Notes under the pieces: generated by a model
Seen by the model: only the letters and a program-made list of their open reading frames with translations
What the model was told of the DNA's origin: nothing
The model's database searches: none
Part shown: positions 22,175-39,877 of the stretch, piece by piece
Numbering within the stretch: position 1 is the stretch's first letter
How the letters are laid out: every line of letters starts with the position of its first letter
Made by a program: the position numbers and the translations under genes
Source of the DNA: Massilia sp. erpn
GTDB taxonomy: Bacteria > Pseudomonadota > Gammaproteobacteria > Burkholderiales > Burkholderiaceae_D
Reading direction: 5' to 3'
Length of the DNA stretch: 64,000 nucleotides
NCBI RefSeq assembly: GCF_024400215.1
Contig: NZ_CP053748.1
Location: 3,410,001 to 3,474,000 of the forward strand

Positions 22175-22209
22175 TTCCCATAATTGAGATATGATCTCAA
22201 TTATGGGAA
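22175..22209. promoter_or_regulatory. Perfect 35-bp palindromic operator
   Basis: The 16-base arm 22175-22190 (TTCCCATAATTGAGAT) is exactly complementary to 22194-22209, around a 3-base centre. It overlaps a -10-like TATGAT (22190-22195) that pairs with TTGTGT (22166-22171) at an 18-base spacing. This layout is what an autorepressor needs; it lies directly upstream of the XRE-cupin gene and within reach of the divergent gene. Confidence 0.82.
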
Positions 22210-22217
22210 ATTCAAGC

Positions 22218-23494: not shown

Positions 23495-25858
23495 TTACTT
23501 GATGCACACGGCCCGCACCATCTTGATGTCGGTAATGCCGAGCAGGACTTTCTCGATGCCATCCATCTTCAAGGTCAGCATGCCGTCTTCCAGCGCGGCG
23601 GCCAGCAGTTCGGCCACGCGCGCATGTTCCTGCAGCAGCTTCTTGACGCGGTCGGTGCCGAGCATCAGCTCATGCAGGCCGACGCGGCCCTTATAGCCTT
23701 TGTTGCACTCCTCGCAGCCCAGCGCGCGGTACAGGGTGAAACGCCCGTCCGCATCCCCATAGCGTTCGCGCCAGCCGGCCAGCACCGTGGCGCGGCTGGC
23801 TTTGGCATCCTTCTGGAAGCCGGCCGTATGCTGCAATTCGCTGCAAAACTCGGTCAGAAGCAGGTCCAGTTCCGCCGCGCCCGGATGGTAGGCCTGCTTG
23901 CATTTGCCGCACAGGCGCTTGGCCAGGCGCTGGGCCAGGATGCCGAGCAAGGCGTCGGCGAAATTGAAAGGGTCCATGCCCATATCGAGCAGGCGCACCA
24001 CCGATTCCGGCGCGCTGTTGGTGTGCAGGGTGGCGAACACCAGGTGGCCGGTGAGCGAGGCTTCGATGCCCATGCCCACGGTTTCCTTGTCGCGCATCTC
24101 GCCTACCATGATGATGTCGGGATCGGCGCGCAGGAAGGCGCGCATCACGGTGGCGAAATCGAGGCCGGCCTTGCGGTTGACCTGCACCTGGCGCAAGCCT
24201 TTCTGCGTGATTTCGACCGGGTCTTCGGCCGTCCAGATTTTCGTGTCCGGCGTGTTCAGGTAATTCAGCACCGAGTGCAGCGTGGTGGTCTTGCCCGAGC
24301 CGGTCGGGCCGCAGACGAAGAACAGGCCATACGGCTTTTCCACCGTGGCGCGCAGGCGGTCCAGGTTGAAGGGCAGCACGCCCAGCTTGTCGAGCGGGAT
24401 CGGTTCGCCCGCCGCCAGGATGCGCATCACCACATCTTCCACGCCGCCGGTGGAGGGGATGGTGGCCACGCGCAGCTCGATGTCCAGCGGGCCGTATTTC
24501 TTGAACTTGATCTTGCCGTCCTGCGGCTTGCGGCGCTCGGAAATATCGAGGTCGCACATGATCTTGATGCGCGCCACCAGCGCCGCGCGGTAGGCGGCGG
24601 GAATCTCGATGTACGGCACCAGCGTGCCGTCCTTGCGGAAGCGGATGCCGGTCTTGCCCTTGCCCGGCAGCGGTTCGATATGGATGTCGGACACGCCCTG
24701 GCGGTAGGCGTCGGTGATCACCTTGTTGAGCAGCTTGACCAGCTCATTTTCGACCGCCTCCGGCACTTCGGCGCTGTCGAATTCCTCGTCGCCTTCCTCC
24801 ATGCCCGAGAGCAGCTCGCCCACGCTGGAACTGTCGCCCGCCGCGTCGTAGAACTGGTCCACGGTCTGCTGGAATTCGCGCGCCGTCGTCACGCGGAACA
24901 GCAGCTTAGCCTTGGGGAAGATCTGGTTGACGACGCGCGCGCCCATCACCCGTTCCGGATCGTGGGCCAGCACGGTCAGGCCATCCTTGCCATCCTCCAG
25001 CGGCAGCCAGCCCGCTTCCTCCACGTACTGGCGCTTCAGGTTCTTCAGCAGCTCGACCGGTTTCAAGCGCTCGGCCTTGAACGGCTCGTAAGGCAGGTTG
25101 TGGAAGTGCGCCAGCGACTGGCCGATGTCGGGCAGGCGCACCTGGAACTGGTCGAGCAGCACCTCTTCCAACGCCAAGCCTTTCTGCCGCGCCGAGCGCA
25201 CCGCCAGTTCCAGCTCGCCCGCCGCCAGCACGCCGTCCGTCACCAGGCCGTCGTATTTGGTGCGCACCAGTTGCGGCGGTTTCATGCGCTGGCTGAAGGC
25301 CACCGACAGGGTTTCGCACAGCTCCTTCACGCCTTCCAGCACGATCGAGGAAAACGGCCCGCCGTCGCGGTTGTTGATGAACTGGACCACGCCCAGCAGA
25401 TCGTGCGATTCCACCGAGATCAGCGGCGCCACCAGCATTTCGCGCGTGCGGTAGCCGGTGCGCTGGTCCACGCCTTTCTGGAAGCGCAGGTCGGCCGAGA
25501 TGCGGTGCAGCTCTGCCTCGTCGTACACGTCAGCGATGTTCAGGGTTTCGCGCGTCAGCGCCACATAGCCGGCGATGCTGTGCGGCGAGACTGCCAGCTT
25601 CAGGTCGCGGAAGGTGGTCAGGCCGGTCTTGACCTTGGAGACGATGTAATCCTTTTCATGGTCCATCGCATACAGCGTGAAGCGGTCGCAATGCAGCAGG
25701 TCGCAGAATTCCATACCCAGGTCGAGCATGATTTCATCGAGATTGCTGGTGGCGTGGATCTTGGTGCTGACGGTCTGCAGCTTGCGGAAGAAGGCCAGAC
25801 GCAAGCTGGTGTCACTGGGTTCGCTGACGGGATCGCGGGGAATGTAGGCATCATTCAT
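23495..25858 (-). CDS. GAF-domain PilB/GspE-type secretion ATPase
   Basis: A 787-residue fusion. Residues about 20-190 form a GAF domain (KLQTVSTKIHATSNLDEIMLDL...LVAPLISVESHDLLGVVQFINN). About 205-340 resemble the MshEN/GspE N-terminal domain (LPYEPFKAERLKPVELL...DGLTVLAHDPERV), which binds c-di-GMP in some homologues. The rest is a type II/IV secretion ATPase: SDIHIEPLPGKGKTGIRFRKDG, Walker A GPTGSGKTTTLHS (about 515-527), the Asp box, Walker B FLRADPDIIMVGEMRD, the His box TGHLVFATLHTNSAPES and the four-Cys zinc site CGKC...CEEC. No pilin or secretin gene adjoins it, so its machine is unclear. It is 14 bases downstream of the MBL gene on the same strand. Confidence 0.92.
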   Translation of the reverse strand: MNDAYIPRDPVSEPSDTSLRLAFFRKLQTVSTKIHATSNLDEIMLDLGMEFCDLLHCDRFTLYAMDHEKDYIVSKVKTGLTTFRDLKLAVSPHSIAGYVALTRETLNIADVYDEAELHRISADLRFQKGVDQRTGYRTREMLVAPLISVESHDLLGVVQFINNRDGGPFSSIVLEGVKELCETLSVAFSQRMKPPQLVRTKYDGLVTDGVLAAGELELAVRSARQKGLALEEVLLDQFQVRLPDIGQSLAHFHNLPYEPFKAERLKPVELLKNLKRQYVEEAGWLPLEDGKDGLTVLAHDPERVMGARVVNQIFPKAKLLFRVTTAREFQQTVDQFYDAAGDSSSVGELLSGMEEGDEEFDSAEVPEAVENELVKLLNKVITDAYRQGVSDIHIEPLPGKGKTGIRFRKDGTLVPYIEIPAAYRAALVARIKIMCDLDISERRKPQDGKIKFKKYGPLDIELRVATIPSTGGVEDVVMRILAAGEPIPLDKLGVLPFNLDRLRATVEKPYGLFFVCGPTGSGKTTTLHSVLNYLNTPDTKIWTAEDPVEITQKGLRQVQVNRKAGLDFATVMRAFLRADPDIIMVGEMRDKETVGMGIEASLTGHLVFATLHTNSAPESVVRLLDMGMDPFNFADALLGILAQRLAKRLCGKCKQAYHPGAAELDLLLTEFCSELQHTAGFQKDAKASRATVLAGWRERYGDADGRFTLYRALGCEECNKGYKGRVGLHELMLGTDRVKKLLQEHARVAELLAAALEDGMLTLKMDGIEKVLLGITDIKMVRAVCIK

Positions 25859-25872
25859 CGGCTGCTCTGCTC

Positions 25873-26766
25873 TTAGAGTTCGACTTCCAGACCTTCATAG
25901 GCCAGAAAGACTTGCAGTCCTTCCGGCAGCGGCGCATGGCGCGCCATGACTTCAGCAAACACCGCTTCCAGCTCGTCGTCGCTGCGGGTCGGCTCGTGGT
26001 GGGTACAGTACAGGACCTTGGCGCCGGTGCGGATCGCCATGGCCAGCGCGGCGTCGAACGTGCCGTGGCCCCAGCCGCGCTTGGACGGATATTCTTCGCG
26101 CGTGTACGAGGAATCGATGATCAGCGCATCCACGCCCTGGGCCGCCGCGTCGATGGCGCGCGTGCGCTGGTCGACCTGCAACTGGCAGGCTGCGTGCTCG
26201 GGATGGCCGGCGGGGAAGAGGTTGTACAGCGGCTCGTGGTCGCCGGTGAAGAACAGCGACTTGCCGCCGCTCTCGATGCGGTAGCCCAGATCGGTGACGG
26301 GGTGGCTCATCACCACGTTGCCGACGCGCGCGTCGCCCACCTCCACCGTTTCGCCGATCTCCAGCGTGCGGTAATCGATGGTGGCGTCCATCTCGGCCTC
26401 GCCCACCGGGAAGTAGCTGTTCTGCAGCTGCACCCCCATCACATGGGCGATGCCGTTGCCGGTGGCCGGATCGCTGGCGCCGTAAATGCATACGCGGCTG
26501 CCCTTGATGAACAGCGGCGTGAAAAAAGGCAGGCCGTGGATATGGTCCCAATGGCTGTGGGTGATGAAGATATTCGCCTGCACCGGCGTCTTGCCCTCGG
26601 CCAGCAGTCCCTGGGCCAGCGCGAAAATGCCGGTGCCGGCGTCGAGCACAATCAGGGTGCCGTCGTCGCTGCGCACTTCGATGCAGGTGGTATTGCCGCC
26701 ATAGCGCACGGTGCGCGGGCCGGGGGAAGGAATCGAACCGCGCACCCCCCAGAATCGGAATTTCAT
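25873..26766 (-). CDS. MBL-fold metallohydrolase
   Basis: A 297-residue metallo-beta-lactamase-fold hydrolase. The metal motif is ITHSHWDHIHGLPFF, with further ligands in MSHPVTDLGYR, FFTGDHEPLYN and CTHHEPTRSDDELE. The N-terminus FRFWGVRGSIPSPGPRTVRYGGNTTCIEV defines a subgroup related to RNase Z and class II cyclic-nucleotide phosphodiesterases; the true substrate is not known to me. It is cotranscribed with the GAF-ATPase and divergent from the HD-GYP/cyclase genes, so a role in cyclic-nucleotide turnover is plausible, but this is inference. Confidence 0.88.
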   Translation of the reverse strand: MKFRFWGVRGSIPSPGPRTVRYGGNTTCIEVRSDDGTLIVLDAGTGIFALAQGLLAEGKTPVQANIFITHSHWDHIHGLPFFTPLFIKGSRVCIYGASDPATGNGIAHVMGVQLQNSYFPVGEAEMDATIDYRTLEIGETVEVGDARVGNVVMSHPVTDLGYRIESGGKSLFFTGDHEPLYNLFPAGHPEHAACQLQVDQRTRAIDAAAQGVDALIIDSSYTREEYPSKRGWGHGTFDAALAMAIRTGAKVLYCTHHEPTRSDDELEAVFAEVMARHAPLPEGLQVFLAYEGLEVEL

Positions 26767-26913
26767 TACCGGACTCCCTCCTTGCTGTCTCGCGTGTTTT
26801 TATGTTTTTGCCGTCTGTGTCGTGCATGGTAAAGACTTGCCGATGATAGCCTTTTTTTCACAATTTCTGGCTGATTCCTTGCGAATTTCCTGGCTTGCAG
26901 GCAGGATTTCAGT

Positions 26914-26929
26914 TGGTACGCCGCGTGCA
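26914..26929 (+). promoter_or_regulatory. Putative sigma54 promoter of the HD-GYP gene
   Basis: TGGTACG-N4-GTGCA has the -24 GG and -12 GC at the exact spacing of the sigma54 consensus TGGCACG-N4-TTGCA, with two mismatches in less critical positions. It lies 43 bases before the start codon. An enhancer-binding activator would be required. Confidence 0.55.
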
Positions 26930-26971
26930 GTACTGGCGCGGTGCGCATCGATATTGCCGAGGATAAACTTC

Positions 26972-28588
26972 ATGCATGAACCGACGCCCAGCCAGATCGC
27001 CCAGCGCCTCGACCAGCTCACGGAACTGAGCGTGGCCCTCGGCGCCAGCGAAGACACGACCCTGCTGCTGGAGCGCATCCTGCATGCGGCGCAAAGCCTG
27101 ACCCATGCCGACGGCGGCACGCTGTATCGTCCCAGCCGCGACCGGCGCAGCCTGCACTTCCACATCTCGGTCAACAACAGCCTGCAGCTGCGCCAGGGCG
27201 GCAGCAGCGGCGTGGCCGTGGATATCCCGCCCGTGCCGCTGTACGACGCCGAAGGGCGGCCGAACCTGGCCTCGGTGGCGGCGTGGTCGGCGCACCAGGG
27301 CCGCGCCGTGAATATCGAGGACGTGTATCTGGACGACGTCTTCAATTTCTCCGGCATGCGCAGCTTCGACCGCCAGTTCGGCTACCACTCGCAATCTTTC
27401 CTCACGGTGCCGATGCGCGACCATGAGGGCGCGCTGGTGGGCGTACTGCAGCTGGTGAATGCGCAAGACCCGGCCAGCGGGCGGGTGCAAGCGTTCAGCG
27501 CCACCGACCAGCGCTTTATCGAGGCGCTGGCGGCGCAGGCCGCGGTGGCGCTGACCAATCAGCAGCTCTTGCACCAGCTGGAAGAGCTGCTGCTGGCCCT
27601 GGTCAATCTGATCAATATCGGCATCGACGAGAAATCGCCTTACACCGGCCGCCACTGCCAGCTGGTGCCGGTGCTGACCATGATGCTGGCCGACGCCGTG
27701 CACCAGACCGATACCGGGCCGCTGGCCGATTTTCATATGAGCGACGCCACGCGGCGCGAGCTGTGGCTGGCCGGCCTGTTGCACGATTGCGGCAAGATCA
27801 CCACGCCGGTGCACGTGGTGGACAAGGCCACCAAACTGGAAACCCTGTTCGACCGCATCCACCTGATCGATACCCGCTTCGAAGTGCTGCTGCGCGATGC
27901 CGAACTGCGCGCCCTGCGCGCGGCGGCGACCGGTGGCGATGCGGACGCCATCCGCGTGGCGCTGGACCAGGAGTGCGCTGCCTTGCGCGCCGACCGCGCC
28001 TTCCTGCAGCATGCCAACGTCGGCGCGGAAAGCATGAGCAATGCCGACCAGGAGCGCGTGCGCCGTATTGGCGCGCGGCGCTGGGTCGGGCCGGATGGCC
28101 GGGAACAGCCCTTCCTCAGCGAGGATGAGCTGAAGAACCTGCACATCCGCGCCGGTACGCTGACCGAGGATGAGCGCAAGATCATCAACAACCACATCGT
28201 GATGACGGTGCGCATGCTGGAATCGCTGCCCTGGCCGCGGCATCTGCAGAACGTGCCGGAATTCGCGGGCGGCCACCACGAGCGCATGGACGGCAAGGGC
28301 TACCCACGCGGGCTGACCAAGGAGCAGATGTCGGTGCCGGCGCGCGTGATGGCGATTGCCGACATCTTCGAAGCGCTGACCGCGCGCGACCGGCCCTACA
28401 AGAAGGGCAAGATGCTGTCTGAGTCGCTGCACATCCTGGGCAAGTTCAGCGAGAACGGCCATATCGATCCCGACCTGTTCGATATTTTCATCCGCCGCAA
28501 GGTCTATCTCGACTATGCGCGCAAGCATATGGACCCGCGCCAGGTCGATGTGATCGACGAGGCGCTGATCCCCGGCTATACGCCATGA
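26972..28588 (+). CDS. GAF/HD-GYP domain phosphodiesterase
   Basis: Probable cyclic-di-GMP phosphodiesterase of 538 residues. An N-terminal GAF domain (about 15-190) is followed by an HD domain (LLHDCGKITTPVHVVDKATK, near 265) and the GYP signature (GHHERMDGKGYPRGLTKEQMSVPARVMAIADIFEALTARDRPYKKGK, near 433). About 165 residues separate HD from GYP where about 70 is usual, so this is a variant with an insertion of roughly 95 residues rich in Ala, Arg and Asp. ATG 26972 follows a GAGGA ribosome site. The stop overlaps the cyclase start (ATGA), so the two are translationally coupled. Confidence 0.93.
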   Translation: MHEPTPSQIAQRLDQLTELSVALGASEDTTLLLERILHAAQSLTHADGGTLYRPSRDRRSLHFHISVNNSLQLRQGGSSGVAVDIPPVPLYDAEGRPNLASVAAWSAHQGRAVNIEDVYLDDVFNFSGMRSFDRQFGYHSQSFLTVPMRDHEGALVGVLQLVNAQDPASGRVQAFSATDQRFIEALAAQAAVALTNQQLLHQLEELLLALVNLINIGIDEKSPYTGRHCQLVPVLTMMLADAVHQTDTGPLADFHMSDATRRELWLAGLLHDCGKITTPVHVVDKATKLETLFDRIHLIDTRFEVLLRDAELRALRAAATGGDADAIRVALDQECAALRADRAFLQHANVGAESMSNADQERVRRIGARRWVGPDGREQPFLSEDELKNLHIRAGTLTEDERKIINNHIVMTVRMLESLPWPRHLQNVPEFAGGHHERMDGKGYPRGLTKEQMSVPARVMAIADIFEALTARDRPYKKGKMLSESLHILGKFSENGHIDPDLFDIFIRRKVYLDYARKHMDPRQVDVIDEALIPGYTP

Positions 28589-30840
28589 AGCGCTTGGCGC
28601 TGCGCTATGGCGCGCGCTGGCTGCTGGGCCTGGGGCTGGCCCTCTTGGCAGGCCTGCAGGTGGCGGGCGTGCTGCACAGCGACGCGGTCGAGCGCATGGA
28701 CGCCTACTTCGCCGGCCTGCGCATGCGGGCCGAGGCACCGACGCTCGATCCGCGCATCGTCATCGTGGATATCGATGAGCGCAGCCTGGCCGAGGTGGGG
28801 CGCTTCCCCTGGAGCCGCGATGTGATGGCGCGCCTGGTGCAGCGTCTGACGACGGGCTACCAGGCCGCCGCCGTCGGCTTCGATATTTCCTTCCCCGAGG
28901 CGGACACCAGTTCCGGCTACGGCGTGCTGCAAGGCCTGGCCCAGCGCGAACTGAAAGGCGTGCCGGGCCTGGACGCGCAACTGGCGCGCCTGCAGCCCCA
29001 ACTCGACTACGACGGCCTGCTGGCTGCCGCCATGCGCGGCCAGCCCGTGGTGCTGGGCTATAACACCTCGGGCGGCTCGCCCAAGGGCGCGCTGCCCCAA
29101 CCGGCTTTCACCGCCGAGCTGCTGAACGGGCGCCGCCTGGACGCTTTCGAGTCCAGCGGTTACGAGGCGAATATCGAACGCCTGCAGCAGGCCGCGCGCG
29201 GCGCGGGCAGCTTCACCGTGCTGCCCGACAGCGACGGTGTGGTGCGCACCGTGCCGCTGCTGCGCAAGATCGGCGACGGCTATTATCCGGCCCTGGCGCT
29301 GGCCACCGCCGCCGTCGCCCTGCAGGCGCGCGCCATCGCGCCGGTGCTGGACAATACCGTCGACACCCTGTCGCATGCCGAACGCGAATACGGCGGGCTG
29401 GAAAGCATTGCCCTGTTCACGCCCGAGGGCATGCTCAGCATCCCGGTGGGGGAGGGCCTCAGCACCACCGTGCAGTTTCGCGGCAAGGGCGGGCCGCAGG
29501 GCGGCGCCTTCCGCTACCTGTCGGCCGCCGACGTGCTGCGCGGCGTCAGCGCGCCGCAGCTGCTGAACGGCGCCATCGTCCTGGTCGGCACCACCGCCCC
29601 CGGCTTGAACGATCTGCGCGCCACGCCGGTCAGCGCTGTGTATCCGGGGGTGGAAATCCATGCCAACATTATCAAATCCATCCTCGACGGCAGCTTCAAG
29701 GCGCGCCCCGATTTCGCGCTGGCGGCCGAGCTGTTGCAAGTGCTGCTGGCCGGGCTGTTGCTGAGCATCGTGCTGCCCTTGCTGGCCCCTTTCTGGACGG
29801 TGGCCCTGGCGGCGGCCAGCGCGGCGGTGGCGCTGGGCTGCAATTTCTGGCTGTACCGCGCCGCCGACGCGGTGCTGAATGTTTCGGCCATCCTGCTGCT
29901 GATCCTGGCCCTGTTCATCCTCAACCTGGCCTGGGGCTATTTCTTCGAGGTGCGCCGCGGCCGCGCCCTGGTGTCGCGCTTCGGCGAATACGTGGCGCCC
30001 GAGCTGGTGGCCGAAATGGCGCAGGACCCCGAGCAGTACAGCATGGAAGGCGAGAGCCGCGAGCTGACCGTGATGTTTGTCGACGTGCGCGGCTTCACCA
30101 CCATTTCCGAAGGCCTGCCGCCGCGCCAGCTGCGCGAATACATCAATCTGTATCTGACGGCCATGTCGCGCGATATCCGCGACAGCCATCGCGGCACCCT
30201 CGACAAATACATCGGCGACGCGGTCATGGCCTTCTGGGGCGCCCCCGTGCCTTTCGCCGACCATGCCAGCCGTGGCGTGGCGACGGCCTTGCTGATGCAG
30301 GCCAGCGCCCTCCGCCTTGACCAGAGCTTCCGCCAGCGTGGCTGGCCGCCGCTGCATATCGGCATCGGCCTGAACACGGGGCTGATGCATGTGGGCGATA
30401 TGGGTTCGGAAATCCGCCGCGCCTATACGGTGATGGGCGACGCCGTCAACCTGGCCTCGCGCCTGGAAGGCATCACCAAGGTGTATGGCGTGGGCATTGC
30501 GGTCGGCCAGGCCACGCGCGAGGCGGCGCCGGACTTCGTCTACCGCGAATTGGACCGGGTGCGCGTCAAGGGCAAGAACGAGCCGGTCGCCATCTTCGAG
30601 CCGCTGGCCCATGCCGGCCAGGCCGATGCCGCCGCCTTGGCGCAACTGGCACGCTGGCACGCTGCGCTGGCGCTGCTGCGCGATCAGCACTGGGACGGCG
30701 CTGCTGCCATTCTGCTGGAACTGCGCGCCGCCGATCCGGCCTGCCAGCTCTATCAGTTATACATGCAGCGCATGGACTATTACCGGCTTCATCCTCCCGG
30801 TGAGAACTGGGACGGCGTCACGAGCTTCGACAGCAAATAG
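28585..30840 (+). CDS. CHASE2-domain adenylate cyclase
   Basis: A 751-residue class III nucleotide cyclase. An N-terminal membrane segment leads to an extracytoplasmic CHASE2 sensor domain (about 35-350, LDPRIVIVDIDERSLAEVGRFPWSR), then three membrane segments (about 365-450) and a catalytic domain from about 490. The metal Asps are in VMFVDVRGFTTIS and KYIGDAVMAFWG. The Lys of LDKYIGD and the Thr of AYTVMGDAVNLASRLE are the residues that favour ATP, so cAMP is the likely product. Its start overlaps the HD-GYP stop by 4 bases. A two-partner secretion cluster follows. Confidence 0.94.
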   Translation: MKRLALRYGARWLLGLGLALLAGLQVAGVLHSDAVERMDAYFAGLRMRAEAPTLDPRIVIVDIDERSLAEVGRFPWSRDVMARLVQRLTTGYQAAAVGFDISFPEADTSSGYGVLQGLAQRELKGVPGLDAQLARLQPQLDYDGLLAAAMRGQPVVLGYNTSGGSPKGALPQPAFTAELLNGRRLDAFESSGYEANIERLQQAARGAGSFTVLPDSDGVVRTVPLLRKIGDGYYPALALATAAVALQARAIAPVLDNTVDTLSHAEREYGGLESIALFTPEGMLSIPVGEGLSTTVQFRGKGGPQGGAFRYLSAADVLRGVSAPQLLNGAIVLVGTTAPGLNDLRATPVSAVYPGVEIHANIIKSILDGSFKARPDFALAAELLQVLLAGLLLSIVLPLLAPFWTVALAAASAAVALGCNFWLYRAADAVLNVSAILLLILALFILNLAWGYFFEVRRGRALVSRFGEYVAPELVAEMAQDPEQYSMEGESRELTVMFVDVRGFTTISEGLPPRQLREYINLYLTAMSRDIRDSHRGTLDKYIGDAVMAFWGAPVPFADHASRGVATALLMQASALRLDQSFRQRGWPPLHIGIGLNTGLMHVGDMGSEIRRAYTVMGDAVNLASRLEGITKVYGVGIAVGQATREAAPDFVYRELDRVRVKGKNEPVAIFEPLAHAGQADAAALAQLARWHAALALLRDQHWDGAAAILLELRAADPACQLYQLYMQRMDYYRLHPPGENWDGVTSFDSK

Positions 30841-30971
30841 CGTTTCGCGCGCGCCACGCCGGCGAAAAATAATCCGCCGCGCCGCGCAAACGGGATTAAA
30901 CTTTAAAGTAACAACAATAACACTCCGCTTAAGCCGGAGAGAGTTTGTTGGGTAGACAGGAGGAGGCTCAA

Positions 30972-31664
30972 ATGACATCCTGCGACAAGCTCGTGCTGGC
31001 CGGCGCCGCATGCGTCGACCTGTTGGCTGTCCTTGCATCTTCAACTGCAATGGCGGCCCCGCCCGACCCCTTGCCCATCGGCGCACCCGGATATAGCAGC
31101 GTCTATACCCGCGATAAGCGCGACTGGAAATCCACTTTCGAAGTGAACAGCGAGCGCGCCCAGCCCGACGAATTCGGCATGCAGGCCGGCCCGCCGCCGG
31201 GTGGCTATACCGTGCGCCTGGCGGCCACGCTGACCCACTCGCTGCCGCGCGACTGGCAGCTGCGCGCCACCGTGAACGGGCAGTACACCAGCGAGGCGCC
31301 CAGCGAGCAGCAGCTGTATGGCGCGCCGGCCACGCGCGCGCTGCGCATCTACAGCTCGCGCGAGGTGCTCACCGACAGCGGCCTGGCGGGCAATCTGGAG
31401 CTGCACTCACCGAATCTGTGCGGCGGCTACCTGCGCAATGAATGCCGCGCCCTGATGTTCTACGACCGTACCTATTTCAGCCGCGTGCGCGAGGTGCATG
31501 GCGTGCTGCGTACGGGCTGGGTGCGCAGCGTGGGCGTTGGCCTGCGCATGAAAATGACGCGTCATACCGATCTGCAGCTCGATTATGGCCGCGTGCTCGG
31601 TAACAGCGCGGTGGGACCGGAAGACCGCAACCGCATCAATCTGCGCCTGGGCTTCTCCTTCTGA
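30972..31664 (+). CDS. Truncated TpsB-like outer-membrane protein (mini-TpsB)
   Basis: A 230-residue exported protein related only to the C-terminal barrel of the TpsB two genes on. It has its own strong ribosome site (AGGAGGAGG) and signal peptide (ending AMA-APP). Shared blocks are LPRDWQLRATVNGQYTSE, NLELHSPNLCGG, RALMFYDRTYF and TDLQLDYGRVLG. A 28-base stretch (31242-31269) is identical to 33037-33064, so duplication or gene conversion is recent. POTRA domains are absent and the VRGF tetrad of loop L6 is replaced (ALRIYS). It is probably not a working translocator; it could be a decaying copy or an accessory outer-membrane protein. Confidence 0.8.
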   Translation: MTSCDKLVLAGAACVDLLAVLASSTAMAAPPDPLPIGAPGYSSVYTRDKRDWKSTFEVNSERAQPDEFGMQAGPPPGGYTVRLAATLTHSLPRDWQLRATVNGQYTSEAPSEQQLYGAPATRALRIYSSREVLTDSGLAGNLELHSPNLCGGYLRNECRALMFYDRTYFSRVREVHGVLRTGWVRSVGVGLRMKMTRHTDLQLDYGRVLGNSAVGPEDRNRINLRLGFSF

Positions 31665-31884
31665 CCATTGCGCCCGCCGCCTTGCAAACAGGGAGGCGGG
31701 CCGCCTTGTCTGACCGTCATCGCGGCTGTCGCATGGACGGTACAAACTGTCGTATTCACGGCGAAAATTTCCTCAAAGCACGATCAAATCTAAGGCGCGC
31801 AGGCCGGGATGCGCAATAATTTTCCCATCGCCGCAGCGCTGCAGGATCTGGGTATTTTTATCCATATTGATCGTGAGACCATAG

Positions 31885-33459
31885 ATGACACACCGCTTCG
31901 CGCACTTTGCCGCCAGCACTGTCTTTGCCGCCGCCTGCTTTTCCGTCCAGGCCCAGGAGGGCGTGATCCGCTTCGAGATCAGCCGTTTCGACGTGCGCGG
32001 CAATACCCTGCTGGCGGAGGACGAGGTGGCGCGCATTCTGGCTCCCTTCACCGGCAGGCAGCGCGATTTCGGCGATGTGCAGCGCGCGCTGGAGGCGCTG
32101 GAAGCAGCCTTCCATGCGCGCGGCTATCAGGTGGTGACGGTGGAATTGCCGGAACAGGAGCTGGAGCAGGGCGTGGTGCGCCTGAATGTGGTGCAGACCC
32201 GCATCGGCCGCATCGCCGTCAAAAACAACCGCCACTTCGATGAAGCCAATGTGCGCCGCGCCTTGCCCGGGCTGCAGGAGGGGCGCACGCCGAATCTGCC
32301 GCAGGTCTCGAATAGCCTGAAACTGGCGAACGAAAATCCGGCGCGCAAGCTGACCCTGAAACTGCAAAGCGGCGGGCAGCATGACGAAGTCGACGCCGCC
32401 ATCGAGGTGGCGGACGAGAAGCCGTGGAAGGCCATGCTGAATGCCGACAACAGCGGCACCAGCCAGACCGGCCGCACCCATCTGGGCTTCGTGCTGCAGC
32501 ATGCCAACCTGTGGGGCCGCGACCATGTCGCCAGCCTGCAGTACACCACCACGGCGGAGGAACCGGGCCGGGTCAAGGTGTATGGCCTGGGCTACCATAT
32601 TCCGCTGTACGCGCAGGGCGATGCGCTGGACTTCTATGCCAGCTATTCGAATATCGATTCCGGCAATGTGGCAGCCGGTGTTCTCAGCCTGGCCGTCAGC
32701 GGCAAGGGCGCGGTGTACGGTACGCGCTATACCCATAATCTGGCCAAGCGCGGTGACTATGAATCGAAGCTGGTGTACGGACTCGACATCAAGGCCTTCA
32801 AGAACAGCGTGCAGTTCGAGGGGCTGGAGCTGGGCAACGATGTGACCGTGCATCCGCTCAGCATCACGTATGCGGGCGACTGGACTTTGCCGCAAGGGGA
32901 ACTGGATGTCTCGGCCACCCTGCTGCATAACATGCCCGGCGGCTCGCGCGGCGGCCAGGCCGACTTCACGCGTGCGCGCATCGGCGCGCGCGACAACTAC
33001 AACATCCTGCGCCTGGGGCTGAGCTATAGCCGCGTGCTGCCGCGCGACTGGCAGCTGCGCGCCATCGTCAACGGCCAGTACAGCAGCGATGCGCTGATCC
33101 CCGGTGAGCAGTTTGGCGCGGGCGGTGCCGGTTCGGTGCGCGGCTTTGCCGAGCGCGAACTGTCCAACGACGTCGGCCTCAACGCCAATCTGGAACTGTA
33201 CACGCCCAATCTTTGCGGCGGCGAAGGCCAGCGCCAATGCCGCCTGCTGGCGTTCTACGACAGCGCCTACCTCAAGCGCAACAAGGCCCTGGCGGGCGAG
33301 TTGCGCAGCACGTCCATCGGCAGCGCGGGTCTGGGCCTGCGGCTGCTGTTATCGAGTTATGCCAGCTTGCAGCTGGATTATGGCCATGTGCTCAAGGAGG
33401 GCGCCACCGCGCGCTCCGGCGGCAACCGCCTGCATGTGCGGCTTGGTCTGGCGTATTGA
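31885..33459 (+). CDS. TpsB two-partner secretion transporter (ShlB/FhaC family)
   Basis: Outer-membrane transporter of 524 residues that exports the TpsA protein encoded next. A signal peptide (FAASTVFAAACFSVQAQ) is followed by two POTRA domains (about 25-180, ISRFDVRGNTLLAEDEVARILAPFTG and TRIGRIAVKNNRHFDEANVRRAL) and a 16-strand barrel. The L6 motif VRGF is intact at about residue 417 (GAGSVRGFAERELSNDVG). The C-terminus ends RLHVRLGLAY with the aromatic residue expected for BAM recognition. It is 27 bases before the TpsA gene. Confidence 0.94.
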   Translation: MTHRFAHFAASTVFAAACFSVQAQEGVIRFEISRFDVRGNTLLAEDEVARILAPFTGRQRDFGDVQRALEALEAAFHARGYQVVTVELPEQELEQGVVRLNVVQTRIGRIAVKNNRHFDEANVRRALPGLQEGRTPNLPQVSNSLKLANENPARKLTLKLQSGGQHDEVDAAIEVADEKPWKAMLNADNSGTSQTGRTHLGFVLQHANLWGRDHVASLQYTTTAEEPGRVKVYGLGYHIPLYAQGDALDFYASYSNIDSGNVAAGVLSLAVSGKGAVYGTRYTHNLAKRGDYESKLVYGLDIKAFKNSVQFEGLELGNDVTVHPLSITYAGDWTLPQGELDVSATLLHNMPGGSRGGQADFTRARIGARDNYNILRLGLSYSRVLPRDWQLRAIVNGQYSSDALIPGEQFGAGGAGSVRGFAERELSNDVGLNANLELYTPNLCGGEGQRQCRLLAFYDSAYLKRNKALAGELRSTSIGSAGLGLRLLLSSYASLQLDYGHVLKEGATARSGGNRLHVRLGLAY

Positions 33460-33486
33460 CGGTTTATCGAGTAGCGGAGCAAGACC

Positions 33487-36400
33487 ATGATGCATCAGCG
33501 TTTCTCCTGCGCCGCGAGCCGGCGCCATCGTCTGCAGCGCACCATGCTGGCGGCGGCCATTGCCGCCGCTTTCGGCGCGGCGCAAGCCAATCCCACCTTG
33601 CCGCAAGTGGTGGCGGGACAGGCGGCATTCAGCCAGGATGGCAAAACCTTTTCGGTTCGCAATGCACCGAACGCCATCATCAACTGGCAAAGCTTCTCGA
33701 TTGCGAAGGACGAGATCACGCGTTTCATCCAGCAGGGGGCGGACAGCAAGGTGCTGAACCGTATCACCGGGCAAGACCCCAGCCAGATTTTGGGCGCGCT
33801 GCAATCGAATGGCCAGGTCTTCCTGATCAATCCCAACGGCGTCCTGTTCGGCCGGGATGCGCGCATCGACGTGCAGGGACTGGTGGCGTCCAGTCTGGCG
33901 ATTGCGAACGCCGACTTCCTGGCCGGGAAGCACAGCTTCAGCGGCGCATCCGGTGCCGGCAAGGTGGAAAACCAGGGCAGCATCGTGACGCCGCAGGGCG
34001 GCCGCGTATTCCTGATCGCGCCCAATGTGGCGAACAGCGGCATCATCGCTTCGCCGCAGGGCGAGGTGGTGCTGGCGGCCGGGCATAGCGTGCAGCTGGT
34101 GGATTCCGCCAATCCGGCCCTGCACGTGGTGGTGTCGGCGCCCGCTGACCAAGCGCTGAACCTGGGTCAGGTGGTGGCGCAGGGCGGCCGTATCGGTATC
34201 TATGGCGCCTTGCTCAGCCAGCGTGGCACGGTGAATGCCGACAGCGCAGTCGTTGGCGCCAATGGCCAGATCGTGCTCAAGGCCAGCAATACGGCCCTGC
34301 TGGAAGCGGGCAGCCGCACCTCGGCGACCGGCGCGGGCAAGGGCGGCGCCATCGAAGTGCTGGGCCAGCGCGTGGGCGTGATGGGCGATGCGCGCATCGA
34401 TGCCAGCGGCGGGCAGGGTGGTGGCAGCGTGCTGCTGGGCGGCGACTATCAGGGCAAGGCCAGCGCCGTGCGCGGTAATGCGCTGCAAAGCTATGTGGGC
34501 AAGGATGCCCGGGTGGCGGCCGACGCGCTGGAGACGGGCGACGGCGGCAAGATCATCGTCTGGGCCGACGACACCACGCGCGCTTATGGCAGCTTGTCGG
34601 CGCGCGGCGGCAAGGCTGGCGGCAAAGGCGGTCTGGTGGAGACCTCGGGCCATTACCTGGATGTGGCAGACGTCCGCGTCGATACCCGCGCCACCAAAGG
34701 CGCCACCGGCACGTGGCTGCTCGATCCTTACGACATCGAAGTGAAGGCTGGCGGCACTGCGTCGGTGGGCGATGTGGCGGCCTTCGCCGCAGGCGCATCG
34801 AGCGGCGTGACCCTGGTCGATCCGGCTTCGCTGGCCTCCACCGCCAGCAATGTGCTGCTGCAGGCCAGCAACGATCTGACCATCACCGATGCGCTCGACC
34901 TCACCACGCCGGGCCTGGAAATCAAGGCGCAGGCGGGCAATCACATCAATGTCAACGCGGCGCTCAAAACCACGGCGGGCCGCATCAGCCTGTGGGCCAA
35001 CGATGCGGGCGCGTCGGGTAGCGATCCGCTGCTGGGCAATCTGAATATCAATGCGCCTATCGATACGCGCGGCGGCACGCTGTCGCTGAGCGGCGCGAAT
35101 CTGAATCTGAACGCCATCGCCAGCATCGGCACCGGCAGCGCCGATCTGCGCACCAATGTGGCCGACGGTACGATCACGGTCGCAAGCACGGGCGGCGTGA
35201 ACGGCCTGGCCGCCGTTGCCAATCTGCCGGTGCTGTCCTTCCTTGCGAATAATGTGGTGCTCGATGGCAGCGTGAGCGCTGGCGGGCCAGGCGACAACAG
35301 CGTAGTGTCTTTCGCGCCGCTGGACAGTAGCCGTGCCTTGGTAATTGCGGCCAGCAAGACGGGCAGCAGTCTGATATTGAGCGCCGATGAACTGAACCGC
35401 ATCGCGGCCTCGGAGATCGTTCTTGGCAATTCCGTGCACAGCGGCGGCATCGCGGTATCGCAGACGACCAGCCTGCATGCCGAGGTGCGCAAGCTGTCGC
35501 TGCACACGGCCAAGGATGTGGTATTCAATCAGCCCCTGATCATGGCGAACGCCAACGGCAGCCTGGAGGCATCGGCCTATGGCAGTGCGGGACGCATCGC
35601 TTTCACTGGCATGGGCAAAGTAAGCGCGTCGGCCGTGAGCCTGCGCGCCGACAATATGGATCTGGGCAGTGCGGCAGGCACCGTGAGCGCCTCCAGCTAC
35701 GTGACGCTCGATACGGATACCGACAGCGCCGCCATCCGGTTGGGGCAGGGCGCCAGCGGCGGCACGGGAATCCTGGTGCTGGACGAGGCGGAGCTGAAGG
35801 CCATTTCCACACCCTTTCTGGGCATCGGCACGCGCGCCACCTACGGCGGTGCATTGAGCGTGGACGGGCCGCTTAATCTTGCATCCATCAGCAATCCCTC
35901 GCTGGCGGCGGCCATGCCGGATGCCAGCGGCGCTGCGCCGGCTGGCGTGCCAAACCGCGTCACCAGCGCCGGCGTGATAGGTGGTTCCGCCATCGCTTCC
36001 CTGAAGCTGCGCGGCGGCAGCCTCGCGCTGACGGGCGATATTGCCGTGACAAATGAACTGGGCTTGTCCAGCGCCGGTGCGATCAGCCAGGGCGGCAAAC
36101 TGACGGCGCAGAGCCTGAACGCCAGCGGCGCCTCGGTCGCACTGGAAGGCGACAACCAGATCGCCAATATCAGTGGCAGCGCCAGTAGCGGCGACTTCCT
36201 GCTGCGCACCAAGGCCGGCTTCCTGCGCGTCGGCAATGGCCAGACGGCGCAAGGCATCAGCGCCAGCGGCCGCATCAAACTGACCGCTGCCGGCCTTATC
36301 GGACAGTACGACAATGCGCCATTGAGCGCCGCCACGCTGTTGCTGTTTGCGCCGGACGGCGTGGATCTGATGGCAGCCAACAACCAGGTTGGCGCGGTGG

Positions 36401-39027
36401 CGGCGCAGAATGTGGCCCGCTTCAATTTCCGTAACGTCGGCGTGCTGAAGGTGGGCGTGGACGGCAAGGGCGTTTCGCTTTCGTCGGCCGGCAGCGCAAG
36501 CGGCACCAATGCGGCCCTGAATATCGATACCAGCGGCCAGCTGGATGTGACCGAGGCGGTGAATGGTGCCGGACAGGTAGTGCGTCTGGGCGGCAGCGCG
36601 GTCCACATCGGCAATGCCGGTGCGCCATCGCACGCCAGCGTCACCGGTTCGAACATCACACTGGATGCCAAGGGCGGCGCTGTTACATTGGATAGCGGCG
36701 CTACGGTGGCGGCACGCCGCGTAAACCTGATCGCGGGGCAGGTCAGCCTCGATCCGGCATCCGCCATCAGCGCCGAGGGCAGTGCGGCGACGGCCGATGG
36801 CGCCGTCACCATCATGCCGGGCAGTGGACGGCTGGTGAAGATCGGTGCGGGCGCTGTCGACGATGCATCCACTCTCGGTCTTTCCAGCGACGAACTCAAA
36901 ACCATCAGCGCCGACGCGCTGTTTGTGCAATCGGCTTCCGGCGGCAGCGGCACCAGCATCGCGGTCGATGGTCTCGACTTGAGCGGGGCCAAGCTGCGCA
37001 GCGGCCTTTGGCTGAATGCCAGCGACAATATCGATCTGAATGGCAGCGTGACTTTGCCGGTCGACCTGTTTGCAACGGCGGGTGGCTATATCGGCAGCAC
37101 CGGCCTGGTCACGGCGCGCAATATCCATTTGAACGCCAGCGATTTTCTGCTGGCCGGCGGCGCGGGCAAGGGCTTGGTGGCCAACGGCCAGACCGGCGTG
37201 GTGGTGCTCGATTCGGGTACTTCGTCCAAGGCCTTGCAGCTGGGCGGCGCAGGCGTGACCACCGGTTCCATCCTGTTGTCGCAGGAGATGCTGGCATCGA
37301 TTCAGGCGAATGAGGTGGCTCTGCTCTCGGCCAGTGCGATCAATGTGGCGGGCGATGTGAGTCTGCTGAATGCCAGCCTGGATTTGAAAGCGCCCACGCT
37401 GGGAGTGCAGGCCGCGCTGAGCGCAGGGAAAATCGATATTCGTACCGACAGTGCCGACATTGTGGGCAAACTGAAGGCCGATATCGTCAGCATCGCGCCC
37501 GTCACGGCGGGCAAGACGATTTCGGTTGGCGCATCCTGCGCCGGCTGCCTGTCGCTGACCCAATTGGCGAATATCGAAGCGCCTACTGTGGGCATCGGTT
37601 CCAGCGATCCGCAGAACGCGGCGGGTGCGATCAGCGTGGCTGGCATCGGCACGAATGCCGGCGCCAGCCAGCGTAATGCCCTCACTACCCGCATTGGCCT
37701 GATCACCGGCGCCGGTGTGCTGCAAACCGGTGCCATCGATGTACGCGACCTTGGTATCGATGCCGGCAATAGCGTTGTGCTGAACGATGCCGGCAACAAG
37801 GTGGAGAATCTGGCCGGTATGGTGAAGGGAGATTTCAGCTTCAAGAACAGCCAGGGTTTGACGATTTCCCGTCTGACGGGCGCCGCCGGCAGCCGCTCCC
37901 ACTACGATGTGAGCGGTCTGAAAGTGGATGGCAATGTGGTGCTGGACGTGGCCGGATCGCTCGCGCGCAGCGATGGCGCTACAGCTGCCGACAAGGGCGT
38001 GATCATGGCTAACCGGCTGGACATGAAGGCGGGCGGCAGTATTGGCGGCGCATCCCTGGCCATGCTGACCAGCGTGGCCGGCCTGTCGGCGGAGAGCACG
38101 GCCACCAGCGGCGCCATGCCGATCAACATCAGCAATGTCAACAACACCGCCTATGACAGCAAGCTCACGGTCTACAAGCTGAAACTGGCCGACGGCAATA
38201 CCGGCACCATCACCTTGAACAATACCGGCGCGACCGAAGTGCCAGCCGCTGGCCTGGTGCGCAGCGACAGCGGCAAGATCACGCTGGTGGCGCATAGCCC
38301 GCTCAGCATCGCCGGCACGGTCAGCAGCGCCAGTGGCGATATCGAGCTGGTGGCCGGCGCCAGCGGCTCTGCGGCGGATGTGCTGTCCTTCGCATCGGGC
38401 GCCCTGGTCACGTCCAGTAGCGGCACTATCAAGCTGGCGGCGGGCCAGTCGATTACCGGCGTGGATGCCACCACGGTGCAAGCCGCGCCGGGCAGGCTGC
38501 TTACGCTGCCGAACCAGAATACGGCGCCGCCGGTCGATCCGCCGCCCACCAATCCACCGCCGCCGGTGGAGCCGCCACCCGTGACGCCGCCGCCGCCGGT
38601 CGAGCCGCCCCCGACCAATCCGCCGCCGCCGGTGGAACCGCCGCCGGTGACGCCACCACCGCCGGTTGAACCGCCGCCGGTGAACCCGCCGCCGGTCGAG
38701 CCGCCTCCCGTGACGCCGCCGCCGGTTACGCCACCGGTCGGCGTCGACCTGTGCCAGCTCACGCCCTCGCTGCCGCTCTGCCAGGTGATTGCGCCACCCA
38801 CGGCGCAGGAGCCGGTCAAGCCGGTGCAGCAGGCGGTGAACCAGGTCGTCAGCGCCGTCAATACGCAGACGCAGATGCTGGCCGATGCATCCGGCTCAGG
38901 TTCGGCCGCTGCGAAGAGCGAGGACAAGAAGCCGGAGAAGAAGGACGAGGGCAGCAAGGGCAATTCCGCCACCGACAAGACTGGAAGCAAAAATGAGAAA
39001 GCCGCACCCAAAATGTATTGCAACTGA
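33487..39027 (+). CDS. TpsA exoprotein with filamentous hemagglutinin TPS domain
   Basis: A secreted beta-helical exoprotein of 1,846 residues. After an extended signal peptide (cleavage near AQA-NP, residue 35) comes the TPS secretion domain with the NPNGVLFG motif at 115-122, GQDPSQILGALQSNGQVFLI, and later DGGKIIVWADDTTRAYGSLSARGG...VETSGHYLDV. A long Ala/Ser/Gly-rich repeat-like beta-helix fills about 300-1,670. A Pro-rich region (about 1,680-1,752) and a short tail with Lys/Glu and a terminal MYCN follow. Few Cys occur before the tail. Function may be adhesion, contact or biofilm; no toxin domain is visible. ATGs 33487 and 33490 are both possible. Confidence 0.93.
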   Translation: MMHQRFSCAASRRHRLQRTMLAAAIAAAFGAAQANPTLPQVVAGQAAFSQDGKTFSVRNAPNAIINWQSFSIAKDEITRFIQQGADSKVLNRITGQDPSQILGALQSNGQVFLINPNGVLFGRDARIDVQGLVASSLAIANADFLAGKHSFSGASGAGKVENQGSIVTPQGGRVFLIAPNVANSGIIASPQGEVVLAAGHSVQLVDSANPALHVVVSAPADQALNLGQVVAQGGRIGIYGALLSQRGTVNADSAVVGANGQIVLKASNTALLEAGSRTSATGAGKGGAIEVLGQRVGVMGDARIDASGGQGGGSVLLGGDYQGKASAVRGNALQSYVGKDARVAADALETGDGGKIIVWADDTTRAYGSLSARGGKAGGKGGLVETSGHYLDVADVRVDTRATKGATGTWLLDPYDIEVKAGGTASVGDVAAFAAGASSGVTLVDPASLASTASNVLLQASNDLTITDALDLTTPGLEIKAQAGNHINVNAALKTTAGRISLWANDAGASGSDPLLGNLNINAPIDTRGGTLSLSGANLNLNAIASIGTGSADLRTNVADGTITVASTGGVNGLAAVANLPVLSFLANNVVLDGSVSAGGPGDNSVVSFAPLDSSRALVIAASKTGSSLILSADELNRIAASEIVLGNSVHSGGIAVSQTTSLHAEVRKLSLHTAKDVVFNQPLIMANANGSLEASAYGSAGRIAFTGMGKVSASAVSLRADNMDLGSAAGTVSASSYVTLDTDTDSAAIRLGQGASGGTGILVLDEAELKAISTPFLGIGTRATYGGALSVDGPLNLASISNPSLAAAMPDASGAAPAGVPNRVTSAGVIGGSAIASLKLRGGSLALTGDIAVTNELGLSSAGAISQGGKLTAQSLNASGASVALEGDNQIANISGSASSGDFLLRTKAGFLRVGNGQTAQGISASGRIKLTAAGLIGQYDNAPLSAATLLLFAPDGVDLMAANNQVGAVAAQNVARFNFRNVGVLKVGVDGKGVSLSSAGSASGTNAALNIDTSGQLDVTEAVNGAGQVVRLGGSAVHIGNAGAPSHASVTGSNITLDAKGGAVTLDSGATVAARRVNLIAGQVSLDPASAISAEGSAATADGAVTIMPGSGRLVKIGAGAVDDASTLGLSSDELKTISADALFVQSASGGSGTSIAVDGLDLSGAKLRSGLWLNASDNIDLNGSVTLPVDLFATAGGYIGSTGLVTARNIHLNASDFLLAGGAGKGLVANGQTGVVVLDSGTSSKALQLGGAGVTTGSILLSQEMLASIQANEVALLSASAINVAGDVSLLNASLDLKAPTLGVQAALSAGKIDIRTDSADIVGKLKADIVSIAPVTAGKTISVGASCAGCLSLTQLANIEAPTVGIGSSDPQNAAGAISVAGIGTNAGASQRNALTTRIGLITGAGVLQTGAIDVRDLGIDAGNSVVLNDAGNKVENLAGMVKGDFSFKNSQGLTISRLTGAAGSRSHYDVSGLKVDGNVVLDVAGSLARSDGATAADKGVIMANRLDMKAGGSIGGASLAMLTSVAGLSAESTATSGAMPINISNVNNTAYDSKLTVYKLKLADGNTGTITLNNTGATEVPAAGLVRSDSGKITLVAHSPLSIAGTVSSASGDIELVAGASGSAADVLSFASGALVTSSSGTIKLAAGQSITGVDATTVQAAPGRLLTLPNQNTAPPVDPPPTNPPPPVEPPPVTPPPPVEPPPTNPPPPVEPPPVTPPPPVEPPPVNPPPVEPPPVTPPPVTPPVGVDLCQLTPSLPLCQVIAPPTAQEPVKPVQQAVNQVVSAVNTQTQMLADASGSGSAAAKSEDKKPEKKDEGSKGNSATDKTGSKNEKAAPKMYCN
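38521..38745 (+). repeat. Proline-rich repeats in the TpsA tail
   Basis: Tandem PPPPVEPPPVT and PPPTNP units are encoded by CCG-rich repeats, about 72 residues in all. They would form an extended stalk between the beta-helix and the C-terminal tail. Such repeats are prone to length change by slippage. Confidence 0.85.
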
Positions 39028-39877
39028 GGCGGCCGGCCTTGGCCGCCTGCTGCTGCAGGCCGGCTTGTGCGCCGCCCTGTGGCTGACCGCGATGCAGGCC
39101 TGGGCGGCGGTGGCGGGCACGGTGGTGCAGTTGAGCGGGCCGCTGCTGGCGAAGAAAGCCAATGGCACGGTCAAGATCCTCTCGCTCAAATCCGAGGTGG
39201 AAAACGGCGACACCCTCGTCACCGAGAAAAACACCTACGCCATGCTGCGCTTCATCGACAACAGCGAAATCACACTGCGGCCCGCGTCCACCATGACGAT
39301 CGAGAACTTCAGCTTCGACAAGGGCAAGCCGGAAGGCGATCAGGCCCATTTCAGTCTGGTGAAGGGCGGCCTGCGTTCGATCACCGGCCTGCTGGGGCAG
39401 CGCAATAAGGAAAAATTCTCGCTCAAGACGCCGGCCGCCACCATCGGCATCCGCGGCACCACCTTTATCGTCGAGTATGTGGCGCCGGACGACGCGCCGG
39501 CCCTGGCCTCGGCCCGGCGCTTCCTGGGCGCCAGCACGGCGGCGCTGGCGCCGGACAGCCTGCCGCCCGCGCCGCTGCAGCTGGCCCAGATGGCGCAACC
39601 CTTGCCTCCTGCCGGTGGAGCGCGTCCCGCCGGCCTGTATGTGCAGGTGGTGGCGGGCCAGATCAATGTCAGCAACGGTGGTGGCGGGTTGAATTTCAGC
39701 GCCGGCCAGTTCGGCTACGTGCCCAGCACGACGCTGCCGCCCATTGTCTTGCCGGCCAATCCGGGCCTGCAATTCACCCCGCCGCCGGCCTTCAGTGCGG
39801 CCGCCAACCCGGCCGCCCAGGCCAATCCCGGCAGCGACAGCGGCAAGGGCAAAGCCGTCGATTGCGAGGTGCGCTGA
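38993..39877 (+). CDS. FecR-domain exported protein
   Basis: A 294-residue protein. An N-terminal signal peptide (LLLQAGLCAALWLTAMQAWA) precedes a FecR-type beta domain (about 40-165: GTVVQLSGPLLAKKANGTVKIL, RFIDNSEITLRPASTMTIENF, TPAATIGIRGTTFIVEYV). A Pro/Ala-rich tail follows. FecR domains occur in periplasmic regulators and in proteins encoded near CHASE2 cyclases and surface proteins. No membrane anchor typical of an anti-sigma FecR is present and no sigma factor gene adjoins. ATG 38993 lies within the TpsA gene (35-base overlap), so it is coupled to the exoprotein and may help its assembly or sensing. Confidence 0.88.
   Translation: MRKPHPKCIATEAAGLGRLLLQAGLCAALWLTAMQAWAAVAGTVVQLSGPLLAKKANGTVKILSLKSEVENGDTLVTEKNTYAMLRFIDNSEITLRPASTMTIENFSFDKGKPEGDQAHFSLVKGGLRSITGLLGQRNKEKFSLKTPAATIGIRGTTFIVEYVAPDDAPALASARRFLGASTAALAPDSLPPAPLQLAQMAQPLPPAGGARPAGLYVQVVAGQINVSNGGGGLNFSAGQFGYVPSTTLPPIVLPANPGLQFTPPPAFSAAANPAAQANPGSDSGKGKAVDCEVR

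Follow-up and report, generated by a model that had tools for sequence, protein, structure and literature searches.

We report a comparative analysis of a gene cluster in a window of 64,000 nucleotides from Massilia sp. erpn (contig NZ_CP053748.1, positions 3,410,001 to 3,474,000; "the window" denotes this whole stretch, and positions count from its first letter). Comparison with related genomes shows that five of its predicted genes, encoding a GAF/HD-GYP protein, a CHASE2 adenylate cyclase, a two-partner secretion (TPS) transporter (TpsB), its exoprotein partner (TpsA) and a FecR-domain protein, form a cohesive unit, to which genes for a metallo-beta-lactamase-fold (MBL) hydrolase, a GAF-PilB ATPase (of the PilB/GspE kind) and a shortened TpsB relative (mini-TpsB) are more loosely attached. 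In relatives of Massilia and Janthinobacterium, the genes for the surface protein have kept their place beside those of the predicted messenger-making and messenger-degrading enzymes despite rearrangements and shared losses. The locus is very probably one functional module. At a probability of roughly 0.5, we favor the reading that it is an inherited envelope-signaling module in which the TPS and FecR proteins feed the cyclase, a direction that we infer.

Results

Linkage and natural losses in the genus

An earlier note on this DNA had proposed that the genes make up one linked system, and the genus bears this out. Among 60 genomes of the genus, the window's own included, the cyclase (E <= 1e-60) was found in 49, and a TpsB orthologue (59-100% identity) in the same 49; none of the 11 cyclase-negative genomes had one, TpsB giving a 36% match only in two of them and none at E <= 1e-60 in the other nine. 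HD-GYP (E <= 1e-100) occurred in 47 of the 60 genomes and GAF-GspE (E <= 1e-150) in 26, all of them cyclase-positive; the two cyclase-positive genomes missing HD-GYP were G032 and G046 (G-numbers denote genomes, L-numbers fetched loci).

We fetched the 40 best-scoring of the 48 relatives' cyclase loci. A window-type MBL gene was present in all 40, HD-GYP in 38, GspE (>600 bits) in 23, TpsA in 39 (the remaining stretch stops at a contig edge) and TpsB in 37 (the other three likewise). FecR was detected in 31; five further stretches stop at contig edges and four inside TpsA, so that it was found in every locus not cut before it. Genes for a kinase, PP2C or FHA protein, which are frequent in the wider order (see below), numbered zero each. 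The grouping goes beyond chance: relatives carry the same set of genes.

The corresponding site in the 11 cyclase-negative genomes was located through the P-type ATPase gene downstream of the locus, of which all 11 hold a relative. None of these 11 stretches had a match to HD-GYP, cyclase, TpsA or FecR (tblastn, E <= 1e-8), a result that for TpsA and FecR covers the ATPase-side stretches only, and their sole TpsB matches coincide with mini genes. One stretch (L149) spans only 7.3 kb, and in two (L157, L158) the ATPase (~60% identity) is the sole hint of the same site. Retained in the 11 were MBL in six, a GspE-like gene (45-52% identity) in seven and mini-TpsB in three. Thus, of the eight-gene set described in the earlier note, five members cohere, and GspE (26 of 60 genomes) and mini-TpsB (9 of 40 loci, 205-393 residues) proved looser.

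An ancestral chromosomal neighborhood inherited and lost as a block would also produce linkage, one without function. The stability of the site fits such an origin, the downstream ATPase being present in 26 of the 40 genus loci (stretches extending no more than 14 kb beyond the start of the cyclase) as well as having relatives in all the negatives. We nevertheless regard it as improbable: gene order has changed several times with linkage kept, and partial losses take the same five genes and may spare others. A mobile island is disfavored as well, since the flanking ATPase is common to relatives.

Gene orders in the family

The family sample comprised 145 genomes and was searched with the mini-TpsB; of 46 rows, two short mini frames (the window's own and that of G053) were dropped, so that 44 TpsB matches from 43 genomes remained. 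This query detects TpsB poorly (it overlooked G237, although stretch L057 of that genome has one), and TpsB absence was therefore not counted. With cyclase positions taken at E <= 1e-130, 33 of the 44 matches lay within 16 kb of a cyclase on the same strand, six were on other contigs of draft genomes, five came from genomes with no cyclase at that threshold, and none was far from the cyclase on the same contig. TPS homologues standing mostly apart from the signaling genes, which the earlier note had named as counter-evidence, are thus not what the genus and family samples show.

Linkage persists while gene order varies (L016, L038, L159, L160). In L159 the order is TpsB-TpsA-FecR, GspE (reversed), MBL2 (another MBL type), HD-GYP and cyclase; in L160 it is cyclase-TpsB-TpsA-FecR, MBL2 (reversed) and HD-GYP. 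A third locus of the window's family, L161, carries a kinase operon and has no HD-GYP in its stretch. Pfam confirmed TpsB, TpsA, FecR and MBL2 in L159 and the kinase in L161, so this one family holds both architectures, TPS in the former and the kinase operon in the latter.

Cyclase loci of the order and phylum, and a proposed messenger chassis

At the level of the order, which from the named loci we take to be Burkholderiales, 60 loci with near-full-length rows were picked by hand, not at random, from 112 cyclase-matching genomes. Two (L056, L057) belong to the window's family; the other 58 span 27 family codes, and some stretches stop at contig edges, making the counts lower bounds. Kinase, PP2C and FHA genes occurred together in at least 37 of the 58 and MBL2, GspE and HD-GYP in at least 34. 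Cyclase, CHASE2 kinase, PP2C, FHA, MBL, GAF-PilB and HD-GYP were all present in at least 30 loci from 19 family codes, co-directional in 30 of 30, with a pilin-like start within the stretch in 22 of them. This operon, whose CHASE2 kinase is of the Ser/Thr type, was seen among L058-L099 (for instance L094:8580-18212), often with a pilin-like gene downstream. In L094, taken as representative, Pfam verified the CHASE2 kinase, PP2C, FHA, cyclase, MBL2 and GspE; its MBL2, like that of L159, scores above the cut-off of PDEase_II (class II cAMP phosphodiesterases).

TPS genes were found in none of the 58 fetched order-level stretches. FecR was present in eight and a Slam-like TPR/barrel gene in six, where it adjoins FecR beside the CHASE2 cyclase (L060, L066, L087, L098, L102, L110); of two scanned against SlipAM (cut-off 22), L087 passes (30.6) and L110 falls narrowly below (21.1). 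Among 20 loci picked by hand from 155 matching genomes of the phylum, ten had HD-GYP, four FecR, one a Slam-like gene and none TPS genes; six held none of the genes sought.

The TPS surface cassette looks, from these gene contents, to have been exchanged on a messenger chassis: the 58 order-level loci include 37 with kinase, PP2C and FHA and none with TPS, the 40 genus loci include 39 with TpsA and none with the kinase, and the window's family contains both types. The cyclase might instead respond to an unrelated cue, with the TPS genes settled alongside as passengers. Its occurrence without TPS genes in all 58 order-level stretches and in L161 agrees with this; the family sample, where not one of the 44 TpsB matches shares a contig with a distant cyclase, speaks against it and makes it very doubtful.

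Layout of the locus

The eight genes, both overlaps and all the gaps listed in the earlier note agree with the open reading frames and Pfam domains (Table 1). HD-GYP and cyclase overlap at 28585-28588, and TpsA and FecR by 35 bases, taking the FecR start at ATG 38993. The gaps are 14 bases (GspE/MBL), 131 (cyclase/mini-TpsB), 220 (mini-TpsB/TpsB) and 27 (TpsB/TpsA). The longest HD-GYP frame, from GTG 26711, runs into the MBL gene, so that ATG 26843 or 26972 is the likely start. The start of mini-TpsB is likely ATG 30972, just downstream of AGGAGG. A relative of one or both of the upstream HTH_3 and GNAT genes was present in eight of the 40 genus stretches.

Table 1. Predicted features of the locus and its flanks (window positions)
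Feature	Position	Strand	Support
HTH_3 regulator and GNAT acetyltransferase, upstream of the GspE gene	22191-23296	+	
PilB/GspE-type ATPase with GAF, MshEN and T2SSE domains, not always present	23495..25858	-	Pfam
MBL hydrolase, candidate cyclic-nucleotide phosphodiesterase	25873..26766	-	Lactamase_B_2
GAF/HD-GYP, candidate c-di-GMP phosphodiesterase	26843..28588 (start 26843 or 26972)	+	GAF + HD_5
CHASE2 class III adenylate cyclase	28585..30840	+	CHASE2 + Guanylate_cyc
Mini-TpsB: signal-peptide-like start, TpsB C-terminal barrel region, no POTRA	30972..31664	+	TpsB homology
TpsB transporter	31885..33459	+	POTRA_2 + ShlB
TpsA exoprotein: TPS domain like that of HMW1/EtpA, C-terminal part rich in proline, final residues YCN	33487..39027	+	TPS domain
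FecR-domain protein, signal-peptide-like start	38993..39877	+	FecR domain; start read from sequence
Heavy-metal P-type ATPase (HMA, E1-E2), after FecR, marks the site	39957-42170	+	

Predicted messenger enzymes and ATPase

The window cyclase matches CHASE2 with 193 bits and Guanylate_cyc with 65 bits, and its best PDB sequence matches are labeled adenylate cyclase or CyaB; the genome encodes two CHASE2 proteins, both cyclases. The expected motifs, whose catalytic roles we assume, are readable in its sequence, and three motif patterns matched 91, 115 and 64 of the 120 cyclases in the loci we fetched, numbers that vary with how strictly the patterns are written. The HD-GYP protein has both HDxGK and HHExxDGxGYP; among 85 relatives, HDxGK is kept in 85 and both motifs in 73.

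The MBL protein matches Lactamase_B_2 with 70 bits and NF041851 with 42 bits (cut-off 400 bits). Its HSHWDH, H155 and D176, the metal ligands, are invariant across 12 aligned rows. Its structural model (predicted local distance difference test, pLDDT, 79.7) most resembles RNase Z, YhfI and PhnP, with yeast PDE1 at rank 34.

The ATPase has T2SSE (373 bits), GAF and MshEN domains, T2SSE matches above cut-off numbering 18 genome-wide; in L023, L028 and L148-L154 the GspE place is taken by a diverged GAF-GspE relative (~180-460 residues aligned at 45-52% identity). RLGxxL, which we take to be the repeat motif of c-di-GMP-binding MshEN in PilB, was absent from the residues read of the window ATPase, and residues 181-280 of 61 relatives showed [RK]LGxxL in a single protein, leaving control of the ATPase by cyclic di-GMP (c-di-GMP) through MshEN unsupported. 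The ATPase GAF region matches 1ykd, labeled adenylate cyclase (E 2.6e-19, best stretch 29-170), and that of HD-GYP matches PDE5-type chains. GAF domains binding cyclic AMP (cAMP) and looping it onto PilB and HD-GYP are kept only as a lead, because the strict NKFDE motif, presumably typical of cyclic-nucleotide-binding GAF domains, is missing from all GAF proteins read.

TpsB, TpsA and FecR

As in type Vb secretion, a TpsB with POTRA_2 (PF08479) and ShlB (PF03865) domains lies beside a tpsA gene whose product has an N-terminal TPS domain (PF05860, 99 bits; TIGR01901, 84 bits). By sequence the nearest solved structure of TpsB is CdiB (6wim). TpsA is the sole PF05860 match of the genome, and its TPS domain is closest to 2odl (1.2e-51), labeled Adhesin and presumably HMW1, followed by EtpA (3.5e-43).

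The TpsA terminus [YF]CN was present in 35 of 37 complete relative frames, the exceptions being L057, which ends MCT, and L049, whose arginine-rich tail may reflect a frame change or assembly error; the family loci L159 and L160 end FCN and MCT. A C-x8-C pair lies within the last 250 residues in 21 of the 37, 81-112 residues ahead of the end. C-terminal cysteines reportedly anchor HMW1 on the cell surface, and TpsA is likely, by analogy, to be surface-tethered. We rejected the idea that this end is conserved only through its overlap with FecR: it is also kept where TpsB, not FecR, comes next (L034, L038, L040, L041, L048, L050-L052, L055). The FecR domain scores 44 bits; a FecI-type sigma factor was not found by Pfam among the eight locus proteins, the flanks not having been searched for one.

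Mini-TpsB

The mini-TpsB shows no POTRA and no Pfam match at all, nor does the orphan copy L148 match Pfam; its alignment is limited to the C-terminal part of TpsB, with 37% identity across the shared part. The column of VRGF/Y, which we take to be the L6-loop motif of TpsB transporters, reads ALRIY in the window copy; VRGF is retained in the longer copies of L020, L031 and L032. In these three loci (~8.3-9.6 kb, cyclase orientation) a mini-TpsB of 376-393 residues directly precedes TpsA, and the full TpsB lies beyond FecR. Within the family sample, short mini frames came only from the window's genus, in two of its genomes. The AlphaFold model is poor (pLDDT 54), and no PDB match was obtained at E <= 0.001.

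In a tree, the 13 mini copies (the window's own, nine from genus loci and three from cyclase-negative stretches) fall on one side of a branch, with 37 full TpsB on the other (support 95/82; 97% of bootstrap trees). The ratio of nonsynonymous to synonymous substitution rates (dN/dS) in six pairs of close relatives was 0.07-0.15 for mini-TpsB and 0.10-0.14 for TpsB, and 0.18-0.25 in three orphan mini pairs. By these comparisons the predicted mini-TpsB is a POTRA-less TpsB relative of single origin under purifying selection, the low ratios leading us to reject a decaying gene. Counting against that rejection, it changes faster than TpsB between subclades: the window copy gave 0.61-0.68 against L023/L035 (TpsB 0.34-0.36) and 0.67-0.75 against the orphans, with dS of 0.8-1.0 in these comparisons. 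Its persistence without this TPS system in three of the 11 cyclase-negative stretches argues that its role is not limited to this TpsA.

Discussion

Proposed pathway and its direction

In the pathway that we favor, TpsB would export TpsA, an exoprotein of the HMW1/EtpA type, to the surface, and TpsA or the state of its export would report on contact with a surface or on the condition of the envelope. The FecR protein would pass this signal through the periplasm to the CHASE2 domain, whereupon the cyclase would produce cAMP, the MBL enzyme would remove it, and the GAF/HD-GYP enzyme would reduce c-di-GMP in step; the GAF-PilB-type ATPase, where present, may be the output. TPS and FecR would thus be an input cassette; in other families of the order the chassis has, in its place, either a cassette of CHASE2 kinase, PP2C and FHA or FecR with a Slam-like barrel.

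We favor this direction because CHASE2 is an extracytoplasmic sensor domain, different outer-membrane partners accompanied by FecR recur beside CHASE2 cyclases, and the worked example, NsrA, runs the same way. The earlier note had drawn the arrow in reverse, with an envelope-sensing system whose cyclase and HD-GYP enzyme tune surface display of the exoprotein; in such a scheme these enzymes would act on TpsA synthesis or export, with FecR and mini-TpsB aiding display. Six genes lying head to tail on one strand with two overlaps suit that arrangement, and c-di-GMP and cAMP often control adhesins. We think it less likely than our own reading, though a serious rival. Two weak tests go against it: between 23 and 40.5 kb, CRP-like sites are none better than two mismatches, and sigma-70-like matches number zero where shuffles average 3.1. 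In addition, the closest worked example, as far as its accessible text describes it, goes from the outer membrane to the cyclase. Control through CRP was rejected as evidence, the three two-mismatch sites in that interval all being intragenic and the whole 64 kb holding 10.

Several observations weigh against the pathway with TPS and FecR as input. Two of 49 cyclase-positive genomes are without HD-GYP, and five of the 44 family TpsB matches are without a strong cyclase match, the six on other contigs being unplaceable. The presence counts share ancestry, and a combinatorial figure drawn from them is not a probability. As to removal of cAMP, the window MBL has RNase Z, YhfI and PhnP rather than a cAMP phosphodiesterase as its nearest folds, misses the PDEase_II match that MBL2 has, and persists in six of the 11 genomes that lack this cyclase. 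Strict NKFDE occurs in 0 of 64 GspE and 0 of 85 HD-GYP proteins (first 330 residues).

Related systems

The locus shares the TPS-domain and TpsB families of HMW1/HMW1B and EtpA/EtpB, and differs from those systems in being tied to messenger enzymes and FecR and in a TpsA that ends YCN. A Campylobacterota cluster of CHASE2 adenylate cyclase, cAMP phosphodiesterase, FecR and TPR proteins, proposed by its authors to be one pathway, is described in the available part of PMC9239204. Its pairing of CHASE2 adenylate cyclase with a FecR protein is found at our locus, likewise beside a candidate cyclic-nucleotide phosphodiesterase; judged by that same portion, the TPS pair replaces the TPR protein (Pfam found no TPR domain in the eight locus proteins), and the HD-GYP, the optional GAF-PilB ATPase and mini-TpsB are extra. 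The earlier note's statement that no described system has exactly this content therefore holds for the exact set in the literature searched, but not for a related core (PMC9239204, available part).

In Sinorhizobium meliloti, the accessible accounts place an outer-membrane barrel, NsrA, upstream of CHASE2 cyclases (PMC13001267, PMC7529298). This NsrA/CyaK, CyaD1, CyaD2/Clr pathway is alike in joining an outer-membrane beta-barrel to inner-membrane CHASE2 cyclases, whereas, by those accounts, NsrA is a single receptor where our locus has a TPS pair (PMC13001267, PMC7529298). A FecR-domain protein is listed among the targets of the cAMP regulator Clr in the text available of PMC5498481. The BiofilmReg operon of Burkholderiales, as outlined in the accessible section of PMC5192318, resembles the locus in a FecR-domain protein adjoining a CHASE2 sensor, there a kinase; it differs in having a CHASE2 histidine kinase with a response regulator, a combination absent from the eight locus proteins by Pfam, and in that section neither a cyclase nor TPS appears. 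No paper treating CHASE2 together with two-partner secretion was found in the literature searched, where the TPS version, the kinase/cyclase/PilB/HD-GYP operon and a POTRA-less TpsB of the mini kind are likewise undescribed (few subscription papers were covered).

Significance

To our knowledge, what CHASE2 domains sense is largely open, and the accessible section of PMC5192318 says the same. TpsB/TpsA and FecR are candidate partners for CHASE2 at this locus, and genomes without exactly the five-gene unit beside the same neighbor offer natural controls. Tentatively, and with less confidence than we place in the pathway itself, TPS could be the receptor arm of a cAMP/c-di-GMP pathway, with TpsA outside the cell, TpsB and FecR spanning the envelope and the CHASE2 cyclase within; it would be an exchangeable input cassette on the chassis of cyclase, MBL hydrolase, GAF-PilB and HD-GYP, with truncation of TpsB having given rise to a small outer-membrane barrel able to live without this TPS. 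Across the order, the kinase/cyclase/PilB/HD-GYP operon has the look of an extensive messenger hub that has drawn little study. Should TPS indeed act on the cyclase, two-partner secretion would serve as a receptor as well as an exporter, a function would emerge for FecR-domain proteins that lack a sigma factor, and the surface protein might belong to a sensor instead of being cargo alone.

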